From IMG/VR virus record IMGVR_UViG_3300045993_000038, positions 1 through 24,710 of that record: a DNA stretch of 24,710 nt; one strand, 5' to 3'. A model generated the notes under the pieces. The model was given only the letters and a program-made list of their open reading frames with translations. It was not told where the DNA came from and did no database searches. Shown here piece after piece: positions 3,001-22,425 of the stretch. Origin of the DNA: a virus. Position numbers and translations under genes: made by a program. How positions within the stretch are numbered: position 1 is the first letter of the stretch; each line of letters starts with the position of its first letter.

Positions 3001-4626
3001 GCGCTTCGTGCGACGAAGTCCACGATGTACACCATTGAGCGCCTGTCCAATGCAGCGCAACTGCTGCGCTGGGTTGCCCCGTTCTTCCCTGCCTTCGAGA
3101 ATGCCATCCGTACATGGGGTCGCATCGTGTACCAGAACCCTGCGGTTCTGGGCTACGGCAACCTGCTGTGGAACGTACCGAACAGTCTTGGCTGGGTGTA
3201 CGACAAGGACGGCAACAAGGTTGAGACCTCGAACATGTTCAAGGATGACGGCCACAAGGTCATCATGCCGCAGAAGTACCAAGAGTGGCTGATCAATCAT
3301 CTGCCCGATACCCCGTTCCTGAACCCCGGCGACCTGACGAACTTCAGGCAGGCGGGATACAACGTCATCCTTCCGGGTGCCGAGTGGTGGTGGCCGGGTG
3401 TGGGTCCGATGGCCCAGACGGCAACGGTTCTCGTGCTTCGCCATCGCCCCGAACTGGCTGACATCATCAGGGCGAACACATCCCCGGAGATGTTCAACAA
3501 CATCGTGCCCGGTGGGGATCCGAACGTGGACATCCCCGACCTGTGGACGCCGACGATCATCAAGCGCGTTGAGGGCGTGGTGTTCAAGAACACGTCAGAG
3601 GATGGGGCGTACCTGACCCTGACCAACACCATGGTTGAGGACGCGTACATCGATGCGCAGATCTCGGGCAAGACGCTGACTGACGCTGATATGAAGAAGA
3701 TCAACGACAGGGTCAACAAGTTCTGGGACTGGAGCATCGGGCAGGCAGCCGTAGGGTTCACTGCCTCGGTCGGATACCAGTCCAAGTACGCGCCACAGCG
3801 TGCGTACTGGCAGACGCTGCTGGATGACGAGTCCCTGTCGTATGACCAGAAGACGAAGGCGTTCCTTGACAAGTTCGACACGAAGTTCATCGACAGCAGC
3901 GCGTACCTCGCGGTAACCCGCTCCGGTTCGATGAATGAGTACGGACTGCAGCCGAACCAGTCCACGTGGAAGAAGATCAACGGCAACCCTGACCTCGTTG
4001 AGAGGCTGGCGAACATCGACCCCGAACTGGTGGGCATGTTCGGCAACATGGGTTCGTTCGATGACCCCTTCTCCTACAGCGTGTACGGCGAACTGCGTCG
4101 TCTGCATGTGGGCAACGACAACAACACGGCACGTCACACGATGACGCCTCAGCAGTTGAACCGCAACAACCAGATCGCTGATGGCTGGAACGAATGGAAT
4201 CAGGTTCAGCAGTTGGTCACCTCTGAGGTGGAGAAGGCTGGCTTCAAGTCTGTCAACGCCCCGGGTGCCGAGCAGTTCAAGGCTGTACTGGATGACACGA
4301 AGAAGACTCTCTCTGGCAAGTACCCCGCATGGGGCGAGGAGAAGGTTGCCTACCTGAACATGACACCGACCTTCATTCTCGGTGCTCGCCTGCTCACCCA
4401 GAACGCTGGGCTGGTGGGAGAGGACACGACGATCTCTGCTCTCCGTGAGTACTTGGGTGTTCGGGACATGGTGTCGCATGAGCGTGCAGCCACGAACGAC
4501 AACGATCTCAAGGGCACACTGAACAACATCGCGTGGGAAGCAGCCGCGAAACTTCGCAACAGTGACATCGGGTTCGCGGATTTCTATGACCGCTATCTCG
4601 CAGACGATGACTTCAGGGAGATCTGA
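1..4626 (+). CDS. Large internal virion (ejection-type) protein, 5' partial
   Basis: The frame is open from base 1. The first ATG (base 28) has no Shine-Dalgarno sequence and is preceded by nine sense codons, so the gene probably starts upstream. Numbering from that ATG, 1,532 residues are visible. The N-terminal part is Gly/Ala-rich with a hydrophobic stretch near residues 50-65. A Trp/Leu-rich segment with WWKLSVLLRLGY lies at 585-596. A coiled-coil-like, Glu/Lys-rich section spans about 640-715. An aromatic segment with WVAPFFPAFENAI lies near 1015. Size, lack of enzyme motifs, and position before a virion peptidoglycan hydrolase fit the giant internal/ejection proteins of short-tailed phages that enter the host with the DNA. 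This is inference from architecture, not a recognised family match. A fused head protein or polyvalent protein is the alternative. Its stop overlaps the next start (TGATG). Confidence 0.6.
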   Translation, partial: TGAEAAVNAMTWGSEQMDHVGAWMMSVVPGGIDTLGWDETYKVSYGQAAAASNAQLVANYGFLGGAIGMLINPIGAGGSFATLNDPSNPMNKQNFNILDDKQHKAAFEDSVYGKIASGIPDALWDVFADPTIVGGKLTSVVRTGTRLGQFGGLSDQALRTVTQVRSWSDRIDKGVQYAATGGKEGKWTPEIEHVQDLISKRADQLDNNPLVRSSPNKPLLLRLAAQVDPEDLATGAALAKAGAGDAAGWASLRARSVSLYDQMSNGMGVDPLEKLPGVAGMSADQVQYGTRLVDDALALLDRVWAEQGRTAIGPTNRAIGSADNAATDVARNVGDAVETVGKKGVDVPAAAADAAPETMAAGQLITRGGNRVSASMAHAANAYRKGAADVQFGAIHQGPIITHEGPVFAKSQWVATTLEHSAGSRPIRVLRWFGQGTPSGVVHLKGGDGDTSLDEIKAFLGKSKIQSDQRVAMYAAYVQAPTPTARKAVVESMEEAEAVAIAHDHGISVDTAKFLYDTYTKSRGRHLATMRAGKNGFAVDDSNSLVTTPGLYTELDEAFPMMDQSVFDKVTHQNAGWMQGIEDVTLFADTVNTWWKLSVLLRLGYTERNVTEGFLRSLATMGTVAANPSAMLRLPANMVYWGGSRRLRGSLRHQEKALIHAYDNVTLARDELRKAVDDLSKGKYTAGTWSGSERYVQLQSEIERLTAEIDDTVTKLRAKDAKRVRGGHQTNTMDDGAEMQGAFQGPEGDIAALLSSADRTARTTFDNSFEARKAAQDQGNLYRAMDPKTMKPGEAQQYWDEYTIRLNGVWRHDSIIQSWLAQEGTDAGVIVENTKRWLMSPAGGHYRQSMTTRGGHVLDIKGRASEAGIEKYLSELWHQFEKELPEETGLRAKLASGSVTPAEVAAAYGIKRTPPAIPVRDVTDIIPNLATRAHDGVRGVANKIMVGIGSFPETALVRHPFYNGVYTQRQKELYNLAKAQGQDISSGTVKARINKAAHQDALRATKSTMYTIERLSNAAQLLRWVAPFFPAFENAIRTWGRIVYQNPAVLGYGNLLWNVPNSLGWVYDKDGNKVETSNMFKDDGHKVIMPQKYQEWLINHLPDTPFLNPGDLTNFRQAGYNVILPGAEWWWPGVGPMAQTATVLVLRHRPELADIIRANTSPEMFNNIVPGGDPNVDIPDLWTPTIIKRVEGVVFKNTSEDGAYLTLTNTMVEDAYIDAQISGKTLTDADMKKINDRVNKFWDWSIGQAAVGFTASVGYQSKYAPQRAYWQTLLDDESLSYDQKTKAFLDKFDTKFIDSSAYLAVTRSGSMNEYGLQPNQSTWKKINGNPDLVERLANIDPELVGMFGNMGSFDDPFSYSVYGELRRLHVGNDNNTARHTMTPQQLNRNNQIADGWNEWNQVQQLVTSEVEKAGFKSVNAPGAEQFKAVLDDTKKTLSGKYPAWGEEKVAYLNMTPTFILGARLLTQNAGLVGEDTTISALREYLGVRDMVSHERAATNDNDLKGTLNNIAWEAAAKLRNSDIGFADFYDRYLADDDFREI

Positions 4627-5471
4627 TGGGTGCGCTTGAGGATGCCAAGGCTGCAGTAAATGCGGCTCGTGCGAACGCGGGAAGCGCCACCACGGATCCT
4701 GCTACGGGCAAGGAGAAGCCACCGCCCATCTGGTTGAGCAGTTACGAACCGAATGGTGGATACGAGGCCATCGGTTCAGCCAGTGCATGGGCTAACCGTC
4801 AGCCGAGCAAGAACGTGGTTGAGCAGAAGGATGTGCTCAAGTACGTCTACGGCATGACGGGTAACCCTGCTGCATGGCAGGAGTACACGCAGGCGCTGTA
4901 CGAGAAGGGCGCACTGTACGACATGCAGTACGCACGCAATGTGGGGTCGGTCATCGATGCCACGAACATGGCGATGCAGATGTACACGAACTCTGGTGCG
5001 AAGCAGTCGTTCATTGAGTGGGTGCGTGATCCCAGCGCTGGCATGATCGGCGTGGACAAGAAGAAGGCAGATCCGGGACTCAACGGTAGCCTCGGTGGGA
5101 CCTCAACCAACACGACAACTCGGGTTGACCTGTCCAATCCTGATACCGCCAAGGGTCTGGTCAACACTGCACTCACCCAGCACCTTGGACGGGCGGCGAA
5201 TCCTCAGGAGGTCAGCGACTTCTACGCCGCACTGCAGGCTCACGAGAAGATGAATCCCCAGACGGGATCCAGCACGACAGAGACCAGCAACCAGCAGATG
5301 TCGGGCAAGCAGGTTGCCTCAGCCACCACCACGAACGACGTGACAGGTGGGGGCACTAATGCGCAGCAGTTCGCTGATGACTGGGCCAAGGCACAAGAGG
5401 GTTCCGCTGAGTACACGGCAGCAACCACCTACATGGACGCATTCCTTCAGGCGATTAAGGCTCCGGTGTAA
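4626..5471 (+). CDS. Putative virion protein (281 aa), unknown function
   Basis: The ATG overlaps the stop of the giant upstream gene by one base (TGATG), implying translational coupling. The protein is mostly helical with Ala/Asn/Gln-rich sequence. A low-complexity Thr/Ser/Asn stretch lies around residues 155-170 and a second one around 215-245. Between them is a helical segment containing LGRAANPQEVSDFYAALQ, a short pattern of a kind I associate with internal or tail-associated virion proteins. There is no signal peptide, transmembrane segment or catalytic motif. Its place between the giant protein and the cell-wall hydrolase suggests a partner in the ejection machinery, but the exact role is unknown. 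Confidence 0.6.
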   Translation: MGALEDAKAAVNAARANAGSATTDPATGKEKPPPIWLSSYEPNGGYEAIGSASAWANRQPSKNVVEQKDVLKYVYGMTGNPAAWQEYTQALYEKGALYDMQYARNVGSVIDATNMAMQMYTNSGAKQSFIEWVRDPSAGMIGVDKKKADPGLNGSLGGTSTNTTTRVDLSNPDTAKGLVNTALTQHLGRAANPQEVSDFYAALQAHEKMNPQTGSSTTETSNQQMSGKQVASATTTNDVTGGGTNAQQFADDWAKAQEGSAEYTAATTYMDAFLQAIKAPV

Positions 5472-7971: not shown

Positions 7972-8316
7972 ATGTCAAGTGCAAGCAGGATGCGGCCATG
8001 GGAGGCCGACACCCGTTACCCTAATGGTCCTCGTCTGGCGTCCGATCTGAGCGAGCCAGCAGCCATGGGAACTATCGGTGTCCTCTCCCCCACCTCGGGG
8101 ACTACGGCTGGTGGGACCACGGTCACCATCGCCGGGACCAATTTCTACAAGATTGCAAAAGTTGAACTGGCTGGCAACGCATGTGTATATACGTGGGTGT
8201 CTGCCACTTCGCTGTCCATCGTGACGCCCGCCGGAACTGCGGGTGCCAAGTCTCTCGTGATTACTCAGACAGACGGCACCTCACAGACGAAGGCTTCTGC
8301 CTACACCTACGTGTAG
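7972..8316 (+). CDS. Small IPT/TIG Ig-like domain protein
   Basis: ATG at 7972 has AGGAGA just upstream. Residues from about 33 to the end form a single IPT/TIG Ig-like fold: LSPTSGTTAGGTTVTIAGTNF near the start (the Gly-Gly-T-V-T-I-G-T-N-F signature), then a VELAGNAC strand and a VTPAGTAG turn, ending in SAYTYV. The first 30 residues are a polar, possibly disordered leader. IPT/TIG domains commonly decorate phage capsids or tails and bind surface glycans. Here the domain is a stand-alone 114-residue protein at the junction of the virion and lysis genes, so a decoration or adhesion role is inferred. Confidence 0.75.
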   Translation: MSSASRMRPWEADTRYPNGPRLASDLSEPAAMGTIGVLSPTSGTTAGGTTVTIAGTNFYKIAKVELAGNACVYTWVSATSLSIVTPAGTAGAKSLVITQTDGTSQTKASAYTYV

Positions 8317-8318
8317 TC

Positions 8319-8630
8319 GTGACCGAAATACACGATTGGCTGGACATTCTTCTGGCGGTGGTCGCGGTACTGACCGTGTTCATCACTCTCTCCCGGTGGA
8401 CTTCCCATCGGCTGGAGAAGAAGATCATCGCCACGATTGTCCTGTCGACCAAGCAGATCAAGACGGACACCAATGGCGGCCAGTCGCTCAACGATGTCAA
8501 CAAGAAGGTTGACGCTCTTGCCTTTGAACTCGGGGAGAACGAGCACAGGCGAGACTTGCAGCATCAAGAGATCAGGTACGAGTTGGCGGCGATCAAGCGG
8601 ATCGCCTCCTACCCAGCAGAGGGCGAGTGA
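8319..8630 (+). CDS. Small one-TM membrane protein of the lysis cassette
   Basis: I chose the GTG at 8319, two bases after the preceding stop, because the in-frame upstream ATG (8181) would read far into the IPT gene. The resulting protein is 103 residues. Residues 7-25 (WLDILLAVVAVLTVFITLS) form one transmembrane helix. The rest is a basic and then acidic, coiled-coil-like cytoplasmic part containing NGGQSLNDVNKKVD. This layout resembles the small DUF2746-like membrane proteins placed next to holins in actinophages; the family match is from memory. It may act as a second holin or a holin regulator. No Shine-Dalgarno sequence is visible, so translation is probably coupled. The next ATG follows its TGA directly. 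Confidence 0.65.
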   Translation: MTEIHDWLDILLAVVAVLTVFITLSRWTSHRLEKKIIATIVLSTKQIKTDTNGGQSLNDVNKKVDALAFELGENEHRRDLQHQEIRYELAAIKRIASYPAEGE

Positions 8631-8861
8631 ATGTTCATGTGGACCGTTGAGTTCTGGAAGGCGACCGCCGAACTGGCGGTGAGGGGCGCGGCATCAGCCG
8701 CCATCCTCTCTATTGGCGCGGAGCAGATCAATGCTCTGACGACCAACTGGGTCACCGTCGGTGGCTTCGCTGCCGGAGGCGCTGCCCTGTCAGTCCTCTG
8801 GTCTCTCGGTTCATCCCCGTTCGGCAAGGTCGGGGCACCCACCATTCTGGAGGTCAAGTAA
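8631..8861 (+). CDS. Holin, r1t-like
   Basis: The protein has 76 residues and two hydrophobic segments, around residues 16-35 and 42-60. A short loop (INALTTNW) separates them, and it ends in a SSPFGKVGAPT tail. The FWKATAELAVRGAA start and the closing SSP-G-P pattern match the r1t-type phage holins common next to actinophage endolysins. It would form the membrane lesion that lets the M15 endolysin reach the wall. An ATG at 8637 is a possible alternative start; dual starts in holins can set lysis timing, but there is no direct evidence here. The stop overlaps the endolysin start (TAATG). Confidence 0.8.
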   Translation: MFMWTVEFWKATAELAVRGAASAAILSIGAEQINALTTNWVTVGGFAAGGAALSVLWSLGSSPFGKVGAPTILEVK

Positions 8862-9394
8862 TGGCTAAGACACTCTCGGGCCATCTGGCCATCACCCCTG
8901 TTCTTGCTCCGCTGTATCTGCGGTCTGCCAAGATCCCCGGACGCACGGTCAGCCTGCGTACCCGCAAGTGCTACCTGCCCCTGTTCCTGCGTCTGGGTGT
9001 CTACCTTGATCAGGTCAGCCAGTTGCACACCACGAACACGTGGTCGTACGCGTACCGTGCCCCCCGGATGGGATCAGGCATCAGTGACCATGCTGGCTAC
9101 GCCATCGACTGCTGGTCCAACAGCATCGGTGCGAACGCATGGCCGAGCCGGATGCCCGTGGTTGAGGCTCAGATCATCAGCCAGATCCTGAAGAAGTTCC
9201 GCACGAAGGATGGTCGCTACCTCTTCGGGTGGGGAGTCAGTGCTGACTCTCCGGGCGTTGACTACCCGATCACGTACCACGGCAAGACCAACGATCCGAT
9301 GCACTTCTTCATCGCACCGAACATCACGCCGAAGGATGCAAACGAGATCATCGCTCGCCTGAAGATTCAGGCCGACGGGACGATTGGAAAGTAA
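8861..9394 (+). CDS. Endolysin, M15-family peptidase
   Basis: The protein has 177 residues. The zinc-peptidase signature is clear: SDHAGYAIDCW carries His77 and Asp83 (S-x-H-x-x-G-x-A-x-D pattern), and DPMHFF carries His148. These are the three expected zinc ligands of M15 (VanY/L-alanyl-D-glutamate or D-Ala-D-Ala) peptidases. There is no signal peptide, so export through the upstream holin is expected. No separate cell-wall-binding domain is visible; the protein is about the size of the catalytic domain alone. GGAGG sits eight bases before the ATG, inside the holin gene, giving tight coupling. Together with the two upstream membrane proteins it makes a complete lysis cassette. Confidence 0.85.
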   Translation: MAKTLSGHLAITPVLAPLYLRSAKIPGRTVSLRTRKCYLPLFLRLGVYLDQVSQLHTTNTWSYAYRAPRMGSGISDHAGYAIDCWSNSIGANAWPSRMPVVEAQIISQILKKFRTKDGRYLFGWGVSADSPGVDYPITYHGKTNDPMHFFIAPNITPKDANEIIARLKIQADGTIGK

Positions 9395-9395
9395 C

Positions 9396-9533
9396 ATGGC
9401 AGATAACAAGCGCGTTGAGATCCCGAAGGAGTCCCTGCTCAACTGGGCATCGGGCAACTACAAGACCGAGGTTCCCGGCAAGTCTGGGAACAACATGCCG
9501 AAGCAGACCGCGCCCGGAATGGAATGCAAGTAA
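9396..9533 (+). CDS. Small hypothetical protein (45 aa)
   Basis: This ORF starts one base after the endolysin stop, with GGAAAG just upstream, and its stop overlaps the next start (TAATG). The 45-residue product is hydrophilic (MADNKRVEIPKESLLN at the start, a Lys/Gly-rich middle) and ends in MECK. I do not recognise it. The support is the tight head-to-tail packing with both neighbours and the G/C-rich third codon positions. Confidence 0.5.
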   Translation: MADNKRVEIPKESLLNWASGNYKTEVPGKSGNNMPKQTAPGMECK

Positions 9534-9667
9534 TGAAGTTCTTCGTCAGCATCATCGTCCCGGACAACAGGTTCACCACGTTCACCGAGGCGACCGACTA
9601 CGTGGACAGCATTCTTCAGCAGATTCCCACGGCCATCGTCGAAGTGACCAACGGCAAGCAGGAATAG
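9533..9667 (+). CDS. Small hypothetical protein (44 aa)
   Basis: The start overlaps the preceding TAA. The product begins MKFFVSIIVPDNRF and has an amphipathic helix in the middle (TEATDYVDSILQQ). The N-terminal hydrophobic strand is too short for a confident membrane segment. GGAATG upstream is a weak ribosome site, so coupled translation is likely. It is the last ORF before the tRNA and non-coding stretch. Function unknown. Confidence 0.45.
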   Translation: MKFFVSIIVPDNRFTTFTEATDYVDSILQQIPTAIVEVTNGKQE

Positions 9668-9674
9668 CACCACA

Positions 9675-9745
9675 GTAGGTGAAGTGTTACGGAAGCACTC
9701 CGGTCTCCAAAACCGGCAGCCAAGGTTCGACTCCTTGCACCCGCG
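9675..9745 (+). tRNA. tRNA-Trp candidate (anticodon CCA)
   Basis: A cloverleaf can be drawn by eye. Acceptor arms GTAGGTG and CACCCGC pair with one A-C mismatch and one G-U. The D-arm is GTG/CAC around a loop with GG. The anticodon arm CCGGT/ACCGG closes the seven-base loop CTCCAAA with anticodon CCA (9707-9709). The T-arm CAAGG/CCTTG closes TTCGACT. CCA is not encoded at the 3' end. Position 8 is A instead of the near-universal T, and the acceptor mismatch weakens it slightly. It lies inside the late operon, 7 bases after a small ORF, so it may be processed from the late mRNA. Confidence 0.75.
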
Positions 9746-9748
9746 CTC

Positions 9749-12323: not shown

Positions 12324-12869
12324 ATGGCTGCGATTGTCGCGGGCGACATCCTCTTCAAGTACAGCGTCGTTGCCGCAGCGGGCAACACGACGGCCTCTTC
12401 TGCTGCTGCCGCTCTGGGTGACCAGATCAGCACGACAGCGTGGGCTGGTGGCTCGGCGAATGACCTGTTCGACAACATCAGCGGCGCAGAGAATGCGGCA
12501 TCGACAGTGGACTACAGGTGCATCTTCGTGCACAACTCCAACGCTGCGAACACGCTGGAGAACGCGGTCGTCTACCTGTCGGCTGAGACTGCCGGTGGTG
12601 CGAACATCACCCTCGCCATTGACGGCACGGCTGCTTCGGCGATTGCCTCCGCATCAGCACAGGCTGCGACCATCGCCAACGAGACCACGGCACCCACAGG
12701 TACGGGTGCGTTCTCTGCCCCGACCACTGCGGGTACGGGCCTGTCGCTGGGTAACATTCCTTCGGGCCAGTGCAAGGCCTTCTGGGTGAAGCGCACCGCC
12801 ACGAACTCTGCCGCCCTCTCCTCTGATGGCGTGACCATCGCAGTCACGGGTGACACCGGGTCCCTGTAA
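12324..12869 (+). CDS. Beta-rich virion surface protein (181 aa)
   Basis: ATG follows AAGGAAGGC. The protein is Ala/Thr/Ser/Gly-rich with few charges. It opens with IVAGDILFKYSVV. A central DLFDNISGAENAA is followed by VDYRCIFVHNSN. This order I associate with conserved phage structural proteins of unknown role. There is no signal peptide. The composition and position suggest a secreted-like, exposed beta protein on the particle. The stop overlaps the next start (TAATG). Confidence 0.55.
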   Translation: MAAIVAGDILFKYSVVAAAGNTTASSAAAALGDQISTTAWAGGSANDLFDNISGAENAASTVDYRCIFVHNSNAANTLENAVVYLSAETAGGANITLAIDGTAASAIASASAQAATIANETTAPTGTGAFSAPTTAGTGLSLGNIPSGQCKAFWVKRTATNSAALSSDGVTIAVTGDTGSL

Positions 12870-13351
12870 TGGCTGACACGAAGATCAGTGCACTCGCCTC
12901 TGCTTCAGCCCTAGCGGGCACGGAGGTGCTGCCTGTCGTGCAGTCGTCCACCTCAAAGAAGGTCACGGTGGATGCCCTACTGGGGCATCTGACCCAGACG
13001 ATGACGGTGGCTCTCAGTGATGAGACCACGGCGATCACGACGGGCACGGCGAAGGTGACGATGAGGATGCCCTATGCCTGCACCCTCACGTCCGTTCCCC
13101 GTGCGTCCGTGAACACGGTGTCCTCGTCTGGCCTGCCTACGGTGGACATCAACAAGAACGGAACGAGTGTCCTGCACGCGACGAACAAGTTGTCGATTGA
13201 CGCAAGCGAGAAGACCAGCGTGACAGCGACAACGGCTACGTCACTGGTGACGACGGCTATCGCTGACGATGACGAGATCACGTTCGATGTCGATGTTGCG
13301 GGCACCGGGGCCAAGGGCTTGAAGGTCACGCTCTACTACACGGTGCCGTAA
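12869..13351 (+). CDS. Beta-rich virion protein, paralogue of the 11852 gene
   Basis: The 160-residue product starts with MADTKISALASASALAGTEV, a short motif often found at the start of phage fibre or appendage proteins, and then VLPVVQSSTSKKVT. The C-terminal domain carries VDINKNGTSVL, IADDDEITFDVD and KGLKVTLYYTV, matching the motif order of the 11852 product. The TAATG overlap at its start and the TAATG at its end show tight packing. A fibre-base or decoration function is inferred. Confidence 0.6.
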   Translation: MADTKISALASASALAGTEVLPVVQSSTSKKVTVDALLGHLTQTMTVALSDETTAITTGTAKVTMRMPYACTLTSVPRASVNTVSSSGLPTVDINKNGTSVLHATNKLSIDASEKTSVTATTATSLVTTAIADDDEITFDVDVAGTGAKGLKVTLYYTVP

Positions 13352-13689
13352 TGGGTGTCCTGCTAAACCCGTTCATGGTGCAGTCGGGTGCCGCTGCGAC
13401 GGTGCCGGGTGCGCCTCCCGTGCCGTACCTGTTCTCGGAGTGGGAGGACGTGAGCAACTGGTGGGGCGTCATCGCTGGATGGGACCCGCCGGTGTCGGAT
13501 GGGGGTTCCGCTATCACGGGTTACGTCGTGCAACAGTCAGGATTCACTGAGTACACGACCACGGATGTCAACCGCTTCTCCAATGAAGTGATGCTGCATT
13601 GGCCCGAGCAGTCCATGACGATAAAGGTGGCCGCCGTCAACGCTATAGGCCAAGGGCCTTGGTCGCCCTTAGCCACCATCTACCCCTAG
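13351..13689 (+). CDS. Fibronectin type III domain protein
   Basis: The protein has 112 residues. From about residue 18 it reads as one FN3 domain: a PGAPPVPYL lead-in, a GWDPPVSDGGSAITGYVVQQ central strand pair (W-x-P-P-x-x-D-G-G-x-x-I-x-x-Y), and closing VAAVNAIGQGPWSP. FN3 modules are common, mobile additions to phage structural proteins. Here the module is an independent small gene. Presumed role: adhesion or decoration on the virion surface. Confidence 0.8.
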   Translation: MGVLLNPFMVQSGAAATVPGAPPVPYLFSEWEDVSNWWGVIAGWDPPVSDGGSAITGYVVQQSGFTEYTTTDVNRFSNEVMLHWPEQSMTIKVAAVNAIGQGPWSPLATIYP

Positions 13690-14776: not shown

Positions 14777-16495
14777 GTGGCTACCGCCCCTCCTGAGTTC
14801 TTCTCCCCGTTCGACCTTGTTGCCCTAGTCGAACCGAACTCCACGGTTTACACGGGTTCTAACTCGGATCATGTGACGGATACGTGGACGTTCCCCGAGG
14901 CTCCGCATACGAAGTTCCCTGTCGTAGCAACTCGGGCGACTACGTGGTCGGTGACGAAGCCGACGAACCGGCGATGGAACTACATCCCTGACCCGAACGC
15001 TGGGAACCTCGGGGCATGGTTCGTCGGCGGGTTCGACAGCCAGTGGTCGGTGTCAGCAACTCAGGCATGGACGGGAAGCACGTCCCTGAGGTTCGCTGGG
15101 AACGGCACAAGTGGCTGCTACCTAACGTCGATAAACGTAGGTGAGACTGGCGGGTACGGCACGGCGAAGGCGGTAGCGGGAGAAATCTTCTCCATAAGTT
15201 TCCGCTTCTGGTCGGATGATACGGCGCAGACGCCGTACGTGAACTTCGACTGGCTGAACGCGCACGGCGGGCTCATCAGTACGAACGGTTCTAGCACCTT
15301 CACGGTGACGGCAAGCGCTTGGAACCAGTGCACCTTCACCTCGTCAGCCGCACCGGCTGGCACCGCGTTCGTCAAGGTAACGATAATCGGCTTTCCGACT
15401 GTCGCTAACACGAAGTTCTCGTACTTCGACGGGTTCGTGTTTGAGAAGGCCAGTTCCGCTGGTGCGTACTTCGACGGCACTTCTGCCGCATCCCGCTGGC
15501 TGGGTGATGTCAACGGTTCAACGTCGATGTTCGGAACGGTTGACGCTTCCCGTGCGACGACGTGGGATGTGGCATACACCGCGACGACGACGCCGGTCAC
15601 GGCGTCCCGTGCGACCTCGTGGTCTACCGATGTCGCCGTGTCGTCCACTCGGGCTACAACGTGGCAGGTTCGTTCCGTTGCCACGGGGACGAGGGCGACA
15701 ACGTGGGCGGTCAAGGCTGCTCTCGCTGCACCCGCTACCCGTGCCACGACATGGAACGCCCTCGCCTCTGTCACGGACGCACAGTCCACTACGTGGTCCG
15801 TACTGCAGTCTGCGACCAGTTCACGCTCCACTGTGTGGGACGCGAAGGCGGCAGTAAGCGCCGCTCGTGCGACCACATACGATGTGAAGGCCACGGTCAG
15901 TGGCTCCCGAGCCACCCTGTGGGACATCCTCTCGGCTGTCCGTGAGGGCTACCTGCTAGAGGATGACAGCGGCGACCTCCTGATGGAGGACGGCGCGGGG
16001 ATCTACATCCTTGACGGCGTGGTCAGTGTCACCGCGAGCAGGGCCACCTCGTGGCAGGTTCGGTCAGCCACGGCGTCCACCCGATCCACATCGTGGAACG
16101 TACTGACGCCTGCCTCTTCTTCCCGCCTCACCTCGTGGGACGTGAAGGGTGCGGTTGGTTCGACCCGTGCCACGTCATGGAATGTCCTGACGCCGGTCAC
16201 TCCGTCCACCCGAGCCACCACATGGTCAGCCAAGGCAGCGATTGCTGCGAGCAGGGCAACATCGTGGAGTGTCAAGGGGTCAGTCTCCGGTTCCCGCATG
16301 ACGTTGTGGGATACGAAGGGGCGGGTGTCCCCGAGCAGGGCAACGACATGGTCGGTGCTTGTTGCCGTAGCCACTCCCACGACACGGGCGACGACATGGA
16401 AGACGTTCCAGTCTGTCGGCTCCACGCGCTCTACGACGTGGAACGTATCCATACTTGAGCCAGTCATTGAGTCATGGGGTTTGATCAAACTGTGA
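14777..16495 (+). CDS. Tail-fibre-like protein with SRATTW repeats
   Basis: GTG start, with GGAGG in AAGGAGGGTGGG just upstream. The first 250 residues contain a beta-sandwich-like domain (about 75-245) with strands and a YFDG motif, resembling carbohydrate-binding-like modules of phage tail proteins. From residue 257 to about 560 the protein is made of 19 copies of a roughly 14-residue repeat, consensus S/T-R-A-T-T-W-x-V, in two blocks of 9 and 10. An unrelated insert (about 391-418) separates the blocks. A single TRATTW also occurs near residue 55. The insert resembles the LLEDGSG-type loops of phage tail proteins. A trimeric beta fibre or adhesin with Trp-lined repeats is inferred. Confidence 0.65.
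   Translation: MATAPPEFFSPFDLVALVEPNSTVYTGSNSDHVTDTWTFPEAPHTKFPVVATRATTWSVTKPTNRRWNYIPDPNAGNLGAWFVGGFDSQWSVSATQAWTGSTSLRFAGNGTSGCYLTSINVGETGGYGTAKAVAGEIFSISFRFWSDDTAQTPYVNFDWLNAHGGLISTNGSSTFTVTASAWNQCTFTSSAAPAGTAFVKVTIIGFPTVANTKFSYFDGFVFEKASSAGAYFDGTSAASRWLGDVNGSTSMFGTVDASRATTWDVAYTATTTPVTASRATSWSTDVAVSSTRATTWQVRSVATGTRATTWAVKAALAAPATRATTWNALASVTDAQSTTWSVLQSATSSRSTVWDAKAAVSAARATTYDVKATVSGSRATLWDILSAVREGYLLEDDSGDLLMEDGAGIYILDGVVSVTASRATSWQVRSATASTRSTSWNVLTPASSSRLTSWDVKGAVGSTRATSWNVLTPVTPSTRATTWSAKAAIAASRATSWSVKGSVSGSRMTLWDTKGRVSPSRATTWSVLVAVATPTTRATTWKTFQSVGSTRSTTWNVSILEPVIESWGLIKL
15545..16456 (+). repeat. 42-bp-class coding tandem repeat array
   Basis: Nineteen units encode S/T-R-A-T-T-W-x-V. 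Spacing between successive Arg codons is 14 residues for most units, with exceptions of 15, 16 and 19. Block 1 runs from 15545 to about 15948 and block 2 from 16034 to about 16456. The units differ at the DNA level through codon changes, so protein-level selection, not recent slippage, keeps them alike. Deviant units replace R by Q or W by Y. Confidence 0.85.
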
Positions 16496-16503
16496 GGATC
16501 GCA

Positions 16504-16764
16504 ATGAGCAACTGCAAGTCGAACTGCCCGACGCAGGATCACGCCTCCTACGGCGAGTGCCTACGGGACGGCATGCCATCGACACGTAACTCCACCCAGT
16601 CGGTTGATTCCCTGTACAAGCGGGAGTTGGTCAACTACACGGAGATCACGGAGTACAAGGCCGCGAGGGCGCAGGGGATCCAGCCGAAGGGTTCCAAACT
16701 GAAGGACATCCGCACGGCTGTGGCTGCCAGCAAGGCAACCGACACGGCCCTGACCCTCACCTAG
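16504..16764 (+). CDS. Small hypothetical protein with Cys motif (86 aa)
   Basis: I chose ATG at 16504, preceded by GAGGATC, over an upstream in-frame ATG at 16474 that would overlap the fibre gene. The N-terminus MSNCKSNCPTQDHASYGECL holds Cys4, Cys8 and Cys19, a pattern I recall from small actinophage proteins of unknown role. The C-terminal part is a polar helix rich in Ala, Lys and Thr. It could bind a metal or form disulfides. Confidence 0.6.
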   Translation: MSNCKSNCPTQDHASYGECLRDGMPSTRNSTQSVDSLYKRELVNYTEITEYKAARAQGIQPKGSKLKDIRTAVAASKATDTALTLT

Positions 16765-16771
16765 GAGAGAC

Positions 16772-17662
16772 ATGACGACGTTCGCCAACATCGTTGACGA
16801 GGTGCAGAGTTATCTCCGCTCCTTCGTCAGGGATCAGGAACTCAGCACCCATCTGACGGCTGACATCACCAACGTGTCCATCGTCATCCCTGTTGCCGAC
16901 ACGTCGGTCCTGTCCCGTGGACGCATACAGATCGATGACGAGATCATCTGGCTGGACAGCGCCGACCGTCAGGGTACAACCGCTACCGCTCCCCCGTACG
17001 GGCGCGGCATGGACAACAGTGCGGCTGCCGCCCACACGGCAGGGACCCGCATCGTGGTTCAGCCGCTGTACCCACGGGTCATGGTGAAGTCGCTGGTCAA
17101 TCAGGCGATCACCACGATTGGGGCGCAGTTGTACGGGGTGAAGGAAGTTCTCCTTGACCCGTCCACGTCGTTCATCTACGAGATCCCGGCTGAGGTGCAG
17201 GATGTGCTGTCGGTTCAGATGACCGACATCACGGCATCGGGTGACGTGTTCTACCTGCGTGACTGGCAGTTGGACAGGAACGCCCCGTCCACGACGAGCA
17301 CCACGGGCAAGTCCCTGTACATCTACGATGGTGCGTTCCGCTACCCGGAGCAGATCGTCGTGAAGTACTCAGTGGATCCGCTGCCTCTGGTTGAGAACAC
17401 GGACCTGTTCACCGCCTCGCTGCTGCCCGCAACGTCACTTGACTGTGTCATCCTTCTGGCTGCCTCCCGTCTGCTCGCCACGGCTGAGGCGTACAACCTT
17501 CAGACTCGTGCGGTTGAGGCGAACACGATGGACTCGAAGGTCCAGCCGGGTATCGGACTGTCGCAGTCGAAGTACCTCTACGGCTTGTACAGCCAGCGCA
17601 TTTCGGAGGAGCGACTTCGCCTCCTTCAGGGCACCGTCCAGCGTTCTCACTACCAGCGGTAA
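16772..17662 (+). CDS. Head-tail connector/adaptor-like protein (296 aa)
   Basis: GGAGAGAC precedes the ATG. The N-terminal helix (TTFANIVDEVQSYLRSF) is followed by a beta part with IQIDDEIIWLDS. Then comes a helical segment (VKSLVNQAITTIGAQLYG) of the kind seen in phage head-tail adaptor proteins. The C-terminal half has strands and a helix-rich end with YLYGLYSQRISEERLRLLQG. It has no signal peptide or enzyme motif. The fold order and position among tail genes suggest a ring protein joining portal and tail, but the family is not proven. Confidence 0.5.
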   Translation: MTTFANIVDEVQSYLRSFVRDQELSTHLTADITNVSIVIPVADTSVLSRGRIQIDDEIIWLDSADRQGTTATAPPYGRGMDNSAAAAHTAGTRIVVQPLYPRVMVKSLVNQAITTIGAQLYGVKEVLLDPSTSFIYEIPAEVQDVLSVQMTDITASGDVFYLRDWQLDRNAPSTTSTTGKSLYIYDGAFRYPEQIVVKYSVDPLPLVENTDLFTASLLPATSLDCVILLAASRLLATAEAYNLQTRAVEANTMDSKVQPGIGLSQSKYLYGLYSQRISEERLRLLQGTVQRSHYQR

Positions 17663-17671
17663 GGGATCACC

Positions 17672-18412
17672 ATGTCACTTCGTAACTTCAGCAATGTGGC
17701 GGTGGAGACCTCTCTTACTGCTGGCGTCAACTCCTCGGTCACCAGCCTCACGGTCGGCTCCGTGTCGGGTTGGGCCGCTGCCCCCTTCACCATCACGGTG
17801 GATCCTGACACGATCAACGAGGAGGGCATGCTGGTCACGAACGTGGCGGGCACGACCCTCACTGTGACGCGTGGCTACAACGGGACGACTGCCCTGTCCC
17901 ATACCTCGGGTGCTGCGGTGAAGCATGCGGCTCTAGCCATTGAGTTCACTGAGGCCAACGCTCACAACAATGCCTCCACCAACGTGCACGGTGTGACGGG
18001 CAGCGTGGTGGGTACGACCGACACGCAGACGTTCACGAACAAGACGATGAGCGGTGTGTCGAACACGTTCTCGAACATCCCGTACTCGGCCATCACGGGT
18101 GTCCCGGCTGCCGACATCGGGATCCTGAACAAGAGCGCTGCGTACACGGTGGCTGCGGCTGATGACACGAAGATGATCGTGATGAATGGCGCGTTCAATG
18201 TGACGCTGCCTTCGGACGCGGCTGACGCTGGTATCGGTATCGGCGCGTACTTCCAGTTGTGCCGGTACGGGGCGGGTGCTGTCTCATTCGTGGCGGGTGG
18301 CGGTGCGACTGTAGTGAGTACGCCTTCTCTGGCGCTTCGCGCCCAGTATTCGACGGCGACAGCGGTGAAGATCGCAGCGAACACCTATCTCGTTGCTGGA
18401 GACTTGACATGA
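17672..18412 (+). CDS. Fibre/appendage-like protein (246 aa)
   Basis: A modest ribosome site (AAGGGATCACC) precedes the ATG. The N-terminal third is beta-rich with TVDPDTINEEGMLVTNV. A GTTDTQTFTNKTMSG segment lies around residues 112-127; this G-T-x-D-x-Q-T-x-T-N-K-T pattern is common in phage tail-fibre and appendage proteins. The C-terminal part ends in a jelly-roll-like strand set with YTVAAADDTKMIVMNG and NTYLVAGDL, a layout frequent in fibre tips. It is probably a short tail spike or head fibre component. The stop overlaps the next start (ATGA). Confidence 0.6.
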   Translation: MSLRNFSNVAVETSLTAGVNSSVTSLTVGSVSGWAAAPFTITVDPDTINEEGMLVTNVAGTTLTVTRGYNGTTALSHTSGAAVKHAALAIEFTEANAHNNASTNVHGVTGSVVGTTDTQTFTNKTMSGVSNTFSNIPYSAITGVPAADIGILNKSAAYTVAAADDTKMIVMNGAFNVTLPSDAADAGIGIGAYFQLCRYGAGAVSFVAGGGATVVSTPSLALRAQYSTATAVKIAANTYLVAGDLT

Positions 18413-19106: not shown

Positions 19107-21005
19107 ATGCGTAACGAGATCCATGAGATCCCTCATGCCCTGACGCTGAACACGACGGACACCCCGTACACGAATCCCAGTGGCATGAACGCCGACTACG
19201 ATCTCGGCGGCATCTACTTCCTTTCCGCTGCCTCGGATGAGATCCCCTACCAGCGTCAGTTGGCGAAGATCCGCAAGGACCAGTTCGACTCGTCGGCTAA
19301 CCCCGGAGACAACAGCCTGCAGGGCTGGTGGCTGCGTAGCCAGACCGACTGGTCGATGGGTGCGGGTCAGCCGTACATGGAGCCGATTGCCACAGAGAAT
19401 GTGGATCGATTCTACGCATCATCGGCGGGTGTCGACGTGTTCTCCGTACCGGGTGAGGCCACCCTGCTCCCAGCGATGGGCACCGCAGCGCAGACCATGA
19501 CGAACGCTAACCCCGGCTTCCTACTGAAGGTCCCGAACGGGTACATCTATGCCGCCGGTACTACCGTGACACGCTACGTGTCGGGTGTGTCGAACTCGGT
19601 GACAGCCGCAGGCACGGTCACGTCGATGATCATCGCAGGACCGAACCTTCTGGTCGCCTCCAATGGGAAGATCGAATGGGCACCCGTTGTCGGGACGTTC
19701 GCCCTGACCACGGGCTTCACGATGACAGCGATCATCCCCCGCATGTGGTGGGTGAAGGGTCGTACCCTGATCGCGTTGGGCAACAAGATCCACCAGAACT
19801 CAGGATCCACGATCACGGGCTCCACGGATCTGGTTGCGGCTACTCCCCTGTACACGCTGCAGGATTCCACCTCTGTGGTGGTGGGTGCAGCGACAACCCC
19901 GAAGTCCATCCTTCTGGCCATCAACACGACCAGCGGATCCAGCATCCAAGCCCTGACACTGGACACGGCGGGTGCCCTGCCGACAACGACGGCCCCCATC
20001 GTGGTGGCCGAGTTTCCCTCAGCCGAATCGCTGCTGGATCTTGCCTCATATCTGGGCACCTACGTGGGTATCGCCACCAGTTTCGGGGTGCGCATCGGAA
20101 CCATCGATGGCAATGGCAACCTGACCTACGGCCCTCTCCTCAACTCCCCCCTCCCGTCGAAGACACAGGACGTGTTCTCGGCGTTCGACCGCTTCCTTCA
20201 TTACGCCACGGCTAATGCGGGTGACAGCATCCCCGGCATCGTGCGGATCGATCTGTCGGAACTGCAGAAGGATGGCCGTGCACCGTGGGCCAACTGGCTG
20301 CGTACCTCCGCGAGTACCGCCGTGAACGGCTGCATCGTCACGGGCCTGCGCACGGCGCTGGTGTGGGCGCAGAACGGGTCGGCTCACAGCCTGTATGACG
20401 TGAAGGACGCGAACGGTCTGGCCGATGGATGGCTGGAGACCTCAGCCGTGCGGTTCGGCACGCTGGAGGCCAAGTCGTTCGACTCGGTGAGGCTGCTGAT
20501 GAACTCCCCGATGCAGGGATCCGTGTTCCTCTCGGTCATCAACAGTGAGGGCTCGGAGTCGGGCATCGGAACGATGACCAGTGCGATGGGTTACGAGGCA
20601 ACCTTCCGTACGGCCAACCGTAAGTCAATGACATCGATGAGCCTGAGGTTCGCGATGTCCCCTGAGTCTGGGACGCCGACACTGGGTCCGACGCTGCAGG
20701 CGTGGACGATGAAGGCCTACCCGTCCGTTGAGTCGCGGGGTGAGTCGGTGCTGCTGCCTCTACTGAACTTCGACTTCGAGAAGGATTCCCATGGTGTGCC
20801 GTGGGGCTACACGGGCAGGGCATGGGACAGGTGGCAGGCTCTACGTGATCGGTTGACCGATGGAACCAGTCTTGTCGTGAAGGAGTTCCAGTCGGGTGGT
20901 TCGTATGTGGCCATGCCTGAGGATGCATCGTTCACTCAGTCGGCTCCCCCGTCGTCGGCGTCGGGGTTCGGAGGGATCATCAGTGTGGTGTTGAAGACAA
21001 TCTAG
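19107..21005 (+). CDS. Large beta-rich tail protein (632 aa)
   Basis: The start is four bases after the previous stop, with GGAAAG upstream. The N-terminal 80 residues are polar with WWLRSQTDWSMGAGQPY around 72-88. After that the sequence is a long run of strands with repeated Gly/Thr/Ser turns (for example LPAMG, VVGAATTPKS, LDTAGALPTT), compatible with a propeller or large beta-solenoid. The C-terminal region has YTGRAWDRWQALRD and a Ser/Gly tail. It is the last gene of the late operon and is likely a tail-nozzle, hub or spike-like protein. No catalytic motif seen. Confidence 0.55.
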   Translation: MRNEIHEIPHALTLNTTDTPYTNPSGMNADYDLGGIYFLSAASDEIPYQRQLAKIRKDQFDSSANPGDNSLQGWWLRSQTDWSMGAGQPYMEPIATENVDRFYASSAGVDVFSVPGEATLLPAMGTAAQTMTNANPGFLLKVPNGYIYAAGTTVTRYVSGVSNSVTAAGTVTSMIIAGPNLLVASNGKIEWAPVVGTFALTTGFTMTAIIPRMWWVKGRTLIALGNKIHQNSGSTITGSTDLVAATPLYTLQDSTSVVVGAATTPKSILLAINTTSGSSIQALTLDTAGALPTTTAPIVVAEFPSAESLLDLASYLGTYVGIATSFGVRIGTIDGNGNLTYGPLLNSPLPSKTQDVFSAFDRFLHYATANAGDSIPGIVRIDLSELQKDGRAPWANWLRTSASTAVNGCIVTGLRTALVWAQNGSAHSLYDVKDANGLADGWLETSAVRFGTLEAKSFDSVRLLMNSPMQGSVFLSVINSEGSESGIGTMTSAMGYEATFRTANRKSMTSMSLRFAMSPESGTPTLGPTLQAWTMKAYPSVESRGESVLLPLLNFDFEKDSHGVPWGYTGRAWDRWQALRDRLTDGTSLVVKEFQSGGSYVAMPEDASFTQSAPPSSASGFGGIISVVLKTI

Positions 21006-21157: not shown

Positions 21158-21369
21158 TTGTCGATCTCGGTGACCTTGAACCTGTGCTGCGGCTTGACCG
21201 TGGAACGCTCGGCCCTCCGGGCACTCTTGATCAGGGCGCTGAAGCCCTTCCCGTAGCAGCCCTGACAGATGTCCACCTCCCACGCCTTCCGGCTGAACAC
21301 GACGGTCATCACACTGACATCGGTGGTGCCCTTGCACAGATCGCAGAAGGTCACGGTTGAGGTGCCCAT
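21145..21369 (-). CDS. Small zinc-binding protein downstream of integrase (74 aa)
   Basis: I chose ATG at 21369, which overlaps the integrase stop (TGATG); a GTG three bases upstream is possible. Cys9/Cys12 (FCDLC) and Cys35/Cys38 (ICQGC) form a four-Cys zinc-binding pair around strands. A basic C-terminal part follows (SARRAERSTVKPQHRF). It is coupled to the integrase, so it might be a DNA-binding helper such as an excision factor or a regulator. No family recognised; the function is inferred from context only. Confidence 0.6.
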   Translation of the reverse strand: MGTSTVTFCDLCKGTTDVSVMTVVFSRKAWEVDICQGCYGKGFSALIKSARRAERSTVKPQHRFKVTEIDKSNL

Positions 21370-22376
21370 CACACTGCCTCCAGTCGTGTCACGCCCTTGG
21401 ACTTGACGAGATCCGGGAGCATGGACTTGCCTGCCAGCATCTCGTTCCTCTGCATCCGTTCGATCCCCACCTGAAGATAGACCTCTGTCACCTTGGTGTC
21501 CGAGTGACCGAGCATGCTACCGACGGTACGAAGGGCACCATCGTAACCAATCGACCGTAACTGGTCAAAGAGGGCACGAGCACCTGACCGTCTGAGGGTA
21601 TGACCACCTGTCTGCTTTGTCTCATATCCGAGTTTTGTCAGCGCACGCTGGGTCATCTCGTAGGGATGCCCGATCTTGGAGGTGGGACGGTAGGCCTGAG
21701 TGCCCCCAGACGGGGCTAGACGGCGTGTCTGAGGGTCGTACACCATCTCCTGTTGGGCTAGACTAGGGACCAGAAAGTAACCGCTCTGAAGGCCTCCTAC
21801 GGCCTTCCCGTAGTCTGCCATGTAGCGTAGCAGTTCCTCCTTCAACTCACTGCACATGGGCAGCATGTCAGGCTGGCTCGTCTTCCACCGGAAGATGCGG
21901 ATCAGGTTGCGGTCGAAGTCCACATCGTCCACCCGGAGGGTGACCAGTTCACTGGACCGGCAGAAGGTGTACAGGCCGAGGGCGAGGACCGCACGATCCC
22001 GTGGGTTGTTGGCCGCATCCAGAAGATCAGCGAACTCCTCCGGGGGGATGATCAACTTCTCCTTCACCGGGACCTTGTTGTTGTCCCAGTCGTCCAGCGG
22101 GTCGTAGTCCTTGGGCATGTAGCCCATGCGACGGCAGTACTGGACGAACTGCTTCAGGTTCCCGAGGTACAGGTTGCGGGTCGCGGGCTCCCACTTGTGC
22201 TGGGTGAACAACTTGTCGAAGTGCTGGGGTCGAAGGGAGGCGACCTGAATGTCACCCACCAGACGCCACAGATGCTTGATCGGCTGCATGTTGTTGTCTA
22301 CCGTATTCGCCGCCTTGCCCTTGGCGATCCGATGGGCGCGGTACTGGTCCATCGCGTCCTTGATGTCGATGTTCAT
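21369..22376 (-). CDS. int: Tyrosine integrase
   Basis: I chose the ATG at 22376, preceded by GGAGG, over an upstream ATG (22421) lacking a ribosome site. The product has 335 residues. The N-terminal ~90 residues are a SAM-like, core-binding domain. The catalytic domain carries Arg140 (FCRSSEL), Lys165 (RWKTS), His259 and Arg262 (HTLRRSG), His291 (LGHSDTK) and the nucleophile Tyr300 (VTEVYL). This is the full R-K-H-R-H-Y set of a tyrosine recombinase. It inserts and excises the phage genome through a DNA-3'-phosphotyrosine intermediate at attP/attB. It is separated from the HTH gene by a 258-bp control region with tRNA-like sequence. Presence of an intact integrase implies a temperate life style. 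Confidence 0.93.
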   Translation of the reverse strand: MNIDIKDAMDQYRAHRIAKGKAANTVDNNMQPIKHLWRLVGDIQVASLRPQHFDKLFTQHKWEPATRNLYLGNLKQFVQYCRRMGYMPKDYDPLDDWDNNKVPVKEKLIIPPEEFADLLDAANNPRDRAVLALGLYTFCRSSELVTLRVDDVDFDRNLIRIFRWKTSQPDMLPMCSELKEELLRYMADYGKAVGGLQSGYFLVPSLAQQEMVYDPQTRRLAPSGGTQAYRPTSKIGHPYEMTQRALTKLGYETKQTGGHTLRRSGARALFDQLRSIGYDGALRTVGSMLGHSDTKVTEVYLQVGIERMQRNEMLAGKSMLPDLVKSKGVTRLEAV

Positions 22377-22416
22377 GGCTGCCTCCGGGCGTCTATTGCT
22401 TGAATGTAACCGTGTC

Positions 22417-22425
22417 AGCATAGCA
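22417..22425 (-). promoter_or_regulatory. Extended -10 element of the integrase promoter
   Basis: On the minus strand TGC-TATGCT reads as an extended -10 (TGN followed by TATGCT). Transcription would start near base 22409, leaving about 33 bases before the integrase ATG. No -35 is visible, as expected for extended -10 promoters. Confidence 0.45.

Follow-up and report, generated by a model that had tools for sequence, protein, structure and literature searches.

Some viral fibers are built from short β-structured repeats whose number varies. The shaft of the adenovirus-type triple β-spiral consists of units of ∼15 residues whose turn contains a conserved Gly or Pro, and we know of no companion gene for this fold or for the β-bracelet of Orsay virus. 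The unit of the latter is described as 8 residues long, comprising a 5-residue strand and a 3-residue loop (PMC7565637). Here, we analyzed a viral sequence of 24,710 bases from IMG/VR (the window), which encodes a protein with an array of 14-residue aromatic units and, three genes away on the same strand, a second protein that we refer to as the companion. The array resembles both fiber folds as a short repeat of predicted β character with a variable unit number, but differs from the β-bracelet by the 8-residue unit of the latter (PMC7565637), and from the triple β-spiral by the lack of a conserved Gly or Pro, each of which was present at a frequency of at most ∼0.10 at all 14 positions of 341 related units.

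Among phages, gp15 of KVP40-like phages (tail sheath stabilizer, phrog_227) likewise carries a 14-residue Trp array, with the companion gene directly 3′ of it; unlike in the window, its array is fused to a tail terminator, and its units lack R-x-T. In the PHROGs collection, profile positions ∼18 to 206 of phrog_6079 (“tail protein”) match several array classes (E values of 5e-7 for locus L016, 2.2e-12 for L242, and 4.8e-8 for KVP40-like gp15), whereas the match of the window array is weak (E value of 0.01, 15.5 bits), and the entry states no function and no link to a companion. The family of the companion itself, phrog_13135, is listed there with unknown function, and nothing we found describes it as a repeat partner. 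gp11 of Arthrobacter phage Idaho has a related β-sandwich domain, but no array. Searches of the open-licence PMC literature yielded no paper for phrog 13135, phrog 6079, or KVP40.0353, and nothing on the repeat or the pairing among the matches listed. Both families are already in PHROGs, without a function or a link.

RESULTS

The array protein contains 20 units with a period of mostly 14 residues

The array protein gene (14777 to 16495, plus strand) has a GTG start and encodes 572 amino acids (aa). Scanning for [RQ]-x-T-x-[WY] revealed 20 motifs in the protein: a lone N-terminal unit (TRATTW, with its Arg at aa 53, nucleotide 14933; 14930 to 14947), which precedes a β-sandwich-like domain, 9 units in block 1 (aa 258 to 388; 15548 to 15940), and 10 units in block 2 (aa 421 to 564; 16037 to 16468). 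Units of block 1 start at aa 259, 278, 292, 306, 322, 336, 350, 364, and 378, and the motifs of block 2 extend from aa 422 to 551. The blocks are divided by an insert with an LLEDG-type motif (REGYLLEDDSGDLLMEDGAGIYILDGVV; 15941 to 16024, plus strand), which is also found between the arrays of the related locus L001. Motifs of this type (YLLEDGSG..LLMEDGAGIYILD) recur at the N terminus of L016 and in another phage protein (L164, 348 to 704).

A first-pass annotation had described a tandem repeat of ∼14 residues in blocks of 9 and 10, which was borne out by the motif scan and by shuffling; its count of 19 is correct for the blocks, but missed the unit at aa 53. The length mode of 14 with occasional units of 15 to 19 residues was also recovered, as spacings deviating from 14 were 15, 16, 16, and 19. 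The same is true for the near-invariant Arg and Trp: among the 19 block units, position 1 was Arg in 18 (the other being Gln336) and the aromatic residue was Trp in 18 (the other being Tyr364), while position 3 was Thr in all 19. For comparison, at most 4 loose motifs occurred in any of 2,000 composition-keeping shuffles, and the 13 R-x-T-x-W pairs observed at a spacing of 14 to 19 contrasted with 0 in each of 5,000 shuffles. A repetitive-looking open reading frame on the minus strand (15118 to 15927) mirrors the array and was set aside.

TRF detected no 42-base tandem repeat in the window DNA. Identical residues in different units shared their codon in 205 of 730 comparisons (0.281, versus 0.332 expected from phage codon usage); thus, synonymous sites are saturated between the units of the window. 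The claim that DNA divergence under protein conservation shows selection is compatible with these saturated sites, which would fit old units maintained by constraint on the protein. An apparent codon anti-repetition in the window (0.027 of simulations were as low) vanished against within-array shuffles (z = 0.7). Units of five related arrays (L001, L009, L016, L018, and L019) shared codons far more often than expected from shuffling within the array (z = 5.7 to 9.2), a sign of recent unit duplication; the window array carries no such sign.

The repeat matches no named fold and is predicted to be all-β

The β-sandwich-like domain (∼aa 67 to 248; 14975 to 15520, plus strand) ends in AYFDGTSAASRWLGDVNGSTS. 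Alignment linked it to domains of L001, of L039, and of the minor tail protein of Arthrobacter phage Idaho, and hhalign against Idaho gp11 gave an E value of 1.5e-4 at a probability of 51. AlphaFold pLDDT values were 64 to 72 over ∼aa 141 to 200. No Pfam model, including CBM_4_9, matched the window domain (aa 67 to 248); its counterpart in L001 gave a sub-threshold match to CBM_4_9 (E value of 0.0016; 19.3 bits at a cutoff of 25.9). VIA-align yielded Z values of ≤6.0 over aa 91 to 220, inside the stated noise of the tool. A β-sandwich in this region is plausible, and we claim no family for it.

For the repeat itself, no Pfam model scored above its cutoff on the arrays of the window and seven relatives, no NCBIfam model did so on those of the window and five relatives, and PDB sequences contained no match. 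The first-pass annotation, which knew of no named fold for the repeat, therefore stands on this point. Single-chain AlphaFold2 models, built with 25 alignment rows for the repeat block and 7 rows for the full protein, were both all-β with a period of 14. The periodic strands sought by structure prediction were thus found, but at low confidence (mean pLDDT of 52.5 and 42.6, respectively), and the models disagreed, with two strands per unit versus one 11-residue strand plus a turn. Foldseek returned no match at an E value of ≤0.001 (best, 4gio at 7.4e-3; BFVD, 4.0e-2).

The array protein occupies the slot of a minor tail protein

The gene order of the window matches that of the Beephvirinae phages Treat and RosePharie of Streptomyces. 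Common to all three are the genes at 4626, 5474, and 6856, the capsid gene, and genes for homologues of phrog_10483 (Treat gp42; 16474 to 16764, the first gene 3′ of the array gene), phrog_7578 (16772 to 17662), phrog_12150 (a tail-fiber-like protein; 17672 to 18412), and phrog_11667 (Treat gp46; 19107 to 21005), the last four being on the plus strand of the window. Between the capsid and phrog_10483 genes, Treat and RosePharie encode a “minor tail protein” (in Treat, phrog_11699 with a match to phrog_6518, “tail fiber”), whose sequence is suggestive of a β-helix tailspike, and the window encodes the array protein. In four further loci (L012, L036, L039, and L040), the array gene is followed by phrog_10483, phrog_7578, phrog_12150, and phrog_11667 in this order. 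Because it lies in the minor tail protein slot, the array protein is very likely to be present on the virion, where it would be a host-facing appendage. The tail or fiber role assigned to it in the first-pass annotation is supported by this gene order and by array proteins that match phrog_6079.

On the plus strand between the companion and array genes are genes for a 160-aa protein with a homologue in L001 (12869 to 13351), an fn3-like protein (13351 to 13689; Pfam fn3 at 6.3e-5, just under the cutoff), and a 275-aa protein with homologues encoded beside the array genes of L018 and L040 (13937 to 14764). The sole tRNA gene in the window is a tRNA-Trp (CCA; 9675 to 9746), located where Treat and RosePharie keep ∼20 tRNAs; a link to the Trp-rich array protein (5.06% Trp) is speculative. 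An integrase gene (21369 to 22421, minus strand; phrog_1, E value of 1.3e-36) suggests a temperate phage; the stretch of Treat that was compared has no annotated integrase.

Related arrays vary in unit number and carrier

A whole-protein search with the array protein returned one relative, L001 (959 aa), with the same layout: unit(s), β-sandwich, units, LLEDG insert, units, and a C-terminal ESWGxIxx. By a three-copy DNA pattern search, 39 IMG/VR stretches were matched. The genuine RxTxW set comprises 22 loci besides the window (itself L002), including L001, with which L028 shares its contig, and the bacterial contig L156. The latter, from an Arthrobacter MAG, was alone counted as genuine in a scan of bacterial genome contigs: of at least 116 pattern matches, 62 had a frame with at least two R-x-T-x-W at a spacing of 13 to 17, and nearly all of these were simple DNA repeats. 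L065 (Gemmatimonadetes) was left outside the count.

In the 341 units of exactly 14 residues (23 sets), position 1 was Arg in 94% (locus weighted), position 7 Val or Thr, and position 11 Val or Ile. Conservation thus fell on the odd positions 1, 3, 5, 7, and 11, with 3 and 5 being invariant because the search pattern required them. Spacing between RxTxW motifs was 14 in 341 cases, longer in 89, and shorter in 2; this asymmetry rests on the RxTxW count, core-motif gap counts excluding short units by construction. Unit numbers ranged from 3 to 47. Related arrays have Tyr or Phe as the aromatic residue, so that Trp itself is not essential. Some array proteins contain embedded domains (Laminin_G_3 in L013 and L009, and the sub-threshold CBM_4_9 match in L001), and sugar binding, which the first-pass annotation had considered for Trp, would be more naturally placed in such lectin-like domains. 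Since a tail sheath gene lies near the array of L001 and a tape measure gene near that of L015, virion types differ among the carriers.

C-terminal to its RxTxW array, L001 has a second repeat (LSGQSSLTATATG type, ∼20 to 22 residues by eye; 8000 to 8799). Its array gene is followed directly 3′ by a glycosidase-like gene (8837 to 9703; Pfam Cellulase at 6.9e-5, slightly under the cutoff), and two nearby genes (1779 to 2354 and 4262 to 4924), with PKTGST / PKTGTT starts, may be sulfotransferase-like.

A companion protein co-occurs with the arrays

The companion (12324 to 12869, plus strand; 181 aa) matched the phrog_13135 profile over residues 3 to 179 (E value of 6.6e-25). Companion and period-14 aromatic array (14777 to 16495) are on the same strand of the window. 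phmmer detected it in 14 of the 22 other RxTxW loci, and a whole-record search added L156, L016, L024, L011, L023, and L039, resulting in 20 of 22; in the remaining two, L022 and L041, the contig breaks off where the array gene starts at its 5′ end. Of 18 pattern-matched loci without an RxTxW array, only one (L038) contained the companion, and this locus carries a phenylalanine array in another frame, with units like SGTFDVLGSVVQSF. Treat and RosePharie, which have the other minor tail protein in the slot, had no companion at an E value of 1e-3. phrog_13135 is common to the companions of KVP40, D479, EniLVp02, PT15-A5, L175, L181, and L001. The companion appears to be a constant partner of 14-residue aromatic arrays across quite different phages.

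Among 50,697 cultured phage records, 53 contained the companion (52 Vibrio phages and 1 Alteromonas phage), and gene arrangement was read in 6 of them (KVP40, D479, EniLVp02, PT15-A5, V05, and PVA8). In KVP40 (Straboviridae), the companion is KVP40.0353 (phrog_13135 E value of 3.5e-112), directly 3′ of gp15, which is extended at its C terminus by a 14-residue Trp array; PDB entries of gp15 match residues 1 to 206 only, and the array lies beyond them. D479 has the same arrangement of gp15 array and companion. In EniLVp02, gp15 has a tyrosine array and the companion adjoins, and in Alteromonas phage PT15-A5 (Schitoviridae) the start of the companion gene is overlapped by a gene of 160 aa, which has five tyrosine units, each exactly 14 residues long. 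In V05, the array is present and the main part of the companion is encoded ∼10 kb away. In MG592456.1 (∼237999 to 239205), gp15 array DNA is annotated as CRISPR spacers, apparently a tandem-repeat artifact.

A search with the KVP40 gp15 array returned 53 records (51 Vibrio phages and 2 Aeromonas phages). Sequence homology between RxTxW and KVP40 arrays was not established, as 23 of 500 column permutations scored as well and hhalign gave a probability of 1.6. Found by way of KVP40, Aeromonas phage BUCT552 (Casjensviridae; L165, 2206 to 6636) has a tail protein (phrog_1101) with C-terminal PYNLRSTVQAELLA-type units of 14 residues, in which tyrosine replaces Trp; a companion gene was not detected in this phage, and its array was treated as an analogue. 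A match in Salmonella phage Sasha was an irrelevant PVARAEP repeat.

Companion genes are accompanied by period-14 arrays of several types

In the converse direction, a companion profile built from 17 sequences retrieved 130 IMG/VR relatives irrespective of arrays. Eighty of these loci were analyzed, which overlap the RxTxW set by some contigs already found by the DNA pattern. Chains of at least five Trp at a spacing of 14 to 17 occurred on the same strand in 58 of the 80 loci, and on the opposite strand in 2, some of the flagged chains being due to chance (L209, L223, and L266) or mixed (L219 and L224). At an exact period, such chains were found in 44 loci for 14, in one each for 9 and 15, and in none for other periods from 7 to 25. 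With a core motif of [WYF]-x-[VITLAS]-x-x-x-[VILATS], chains of at least six at a spacing of 14 to 17 were present on the same strand in 47 of 80 loci, compared with none of the 80 on the opposite strand and 0 at five control periods.

Where at least 3 kb was available downstream, 45 of 61 companion loci had core-motif chains. Near-copy loci are kept in these raw counts; after clustering at 95% companion identity (69 clusters among the 80 loci), 44 of the 56 clusters with at least 3 kb downstream had them at a threshold of 5, and 43 of 56 at a threshold of 6. Of the 16 remaining loci, 10 have short or variant arrays (L202, L208, L210, L209, L243, L257, L258, L264, L268, and L269), and in 6 no array was seen despite full flanks (L204, L214, L222, L230, L231, and L250). 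The array types next to the companion include RxTxW, LDLRWSIRSKVADT, LDLRWSIR, WSVRSLLGDT, WNTRAAVGK (WNTRAAVG), SWKVLAPVSQ, tyrosine forms, and others; common to them is aromatic-x-V-x-x-x-V, or more fully aromatic-x-V-(R/K/L)-x-x-V.

On a companion tree of 82 rows (22 RxTxW, 37 other, and 23 unlabeled), the RxTxW label changed twice, compared with a mean of 17.9 changes after shuffling, and 0 of 500 shuffles were as low. Labels were set by eye, with that of L223 dropped, L209 set to the R class, and L266 kept as other. Finer array types also clustered by eye, and the KVP40 branch was very long. Such agreement would point to a traveling pair rather than to contact, and co-inheritance alone could yield it. 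The remote companion-like sequences LR756511 (E value of 0.03) and LR797314 (E value of 0.6) were without an array. Large phage proteins (phrog_6128, 1,200 aa; L276, 8001 to 11582) have a weakly companion-like N terminus and no array.

DISCUSSION

The reading that we prefer, held at slightly less than even confidence, is that the array protein would be an appendage on the virion surface, encoded where the receptor-binding tail protein is otherwise found, and would form a two-gene module with the companion, which would dock on its units. The 14-residue units would form an extended string of β character. Each unit would offer one docking site, made up of the core aromatic-x-V-x-x-x-V and class-specific flanks (here, R-x-T before Trp), and the loaded string would resemble a beaded whisker that also shows embedded sugar-binding-type domains to the host. 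As the array is carried by different proteins (gp15 in some phages, LamG- or CBM-like adhesins in others), the companion goes with the array rather than with its carrier, and therefore most likely acts on the former. We are highly confident that companion and array are functionally paired. Direct binding between them is probable, and a stoichiometry of one companion per unit is conceivable, if a supposition we would sooner doubt. In extended form, 14 residues span ∼4.7 nm, which would leave room for a sphere of 17.6 kDa (3.4 nm). Docking is favored because units are 14 residues or longer and hardly ever shorter, which would be expected if bound subunits had to stay a minimum distance apart. 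Against this reading stand the loci in which the companion has full flanks but no visible array (L204, L214, L222, L230, L231, and L250), the array-free remote sequences LR756511 and LR797314, the weak sequence link between RxTxW and KVP40 units, the tyrosine arrays of Aeromonas phages, for which no companion was detected, and the three genes that separate companion and array in the window.

Nearly as likely as this docking string, and likewise short of an even chance, is an array that folds by itself into a fiber shaft (a trimeric β-spiral, a β-prism, or a monomeric β-solenoid), in which unit number determines shaft length and the companion acts as adaptor, cap, or folding helper. Conservation at positions 1, 3, 5, 7, and 11 corresponds to an amphipathic strand pattern (positions 3 and 5 being fixed by the search), the AlphaFold models are all-β with a period of 14, and 3 to 47 units among loci would vary as shaft lengths do. 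However, the mean pLDDT was 52.5 and 42.6 in models that disagree on the strands per unit, no fold matched at an E value of ≤0.001, the Gly or Pro of the β-spiral is not conserved, and an adaptor seems needless in KVP40, where a neck protein itself carries the array.

Low pLDDT values would also agree with an array that is largely disordered and serves as a flexible link between sugar-binding domains, repetitive only by duplication and with an unrelated neighbor as the companion, as would the Ser-, Thr-, and Ala-rich composition of the arrays and the recent duplication suggested by codon sharing in L001, L009, L016, L018, and L019. We consider this improbable, since the aromatic residue, V7, and V11 are conserved across unrelated arrays, synonymous sites in the window are saturated, and the companion co-occurs. 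Co-occurrence could stem from co-inherited neighboring structural genes. That the pairing merely reflects the conserved structural gene neighborhood of one phage lineage gains from the four podovirus-like loci L012, L036, L039, and L040, which share much gene order with the window, and from the dominance of related phages in the RxTxW set. We give this explanation equally little credence, as the pair was found in Straboviridae and Schitoviridae phages, beside a tail sheath (L001) and a tape measure protein (L015), with unrelated carriers, and in 69 clusters at 95% companion identity among 80 loci.

Should docking hold, several phage families might share the string and its beads: a period-14 peptide hung on any virion protein, a companion of 160 to 185 aa bound once per unit, whisker length set by unit number, and a pair co-evolving in its class-specific flanks. 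In this full form, we regard the proposal as rather unlikely. The presence of the pair in Straboviridae, Schitoviridae, and window-like phages suggests that different phages have in common a means of building appendages that has yet to be named. For two unnamed families, phrog_13135 and that part of phrog_6079 which covers the arrays, it provides a testable shared role. It could also explain why gp15 of KVP40-like Vibrio phages is extended at its C terminus, and it points to an appendage part that is portable among podovirus-, siphovirus-, and myovirus-like phages. Were docking shown, the array would be a simple, length-tunable scaffold for virion display.
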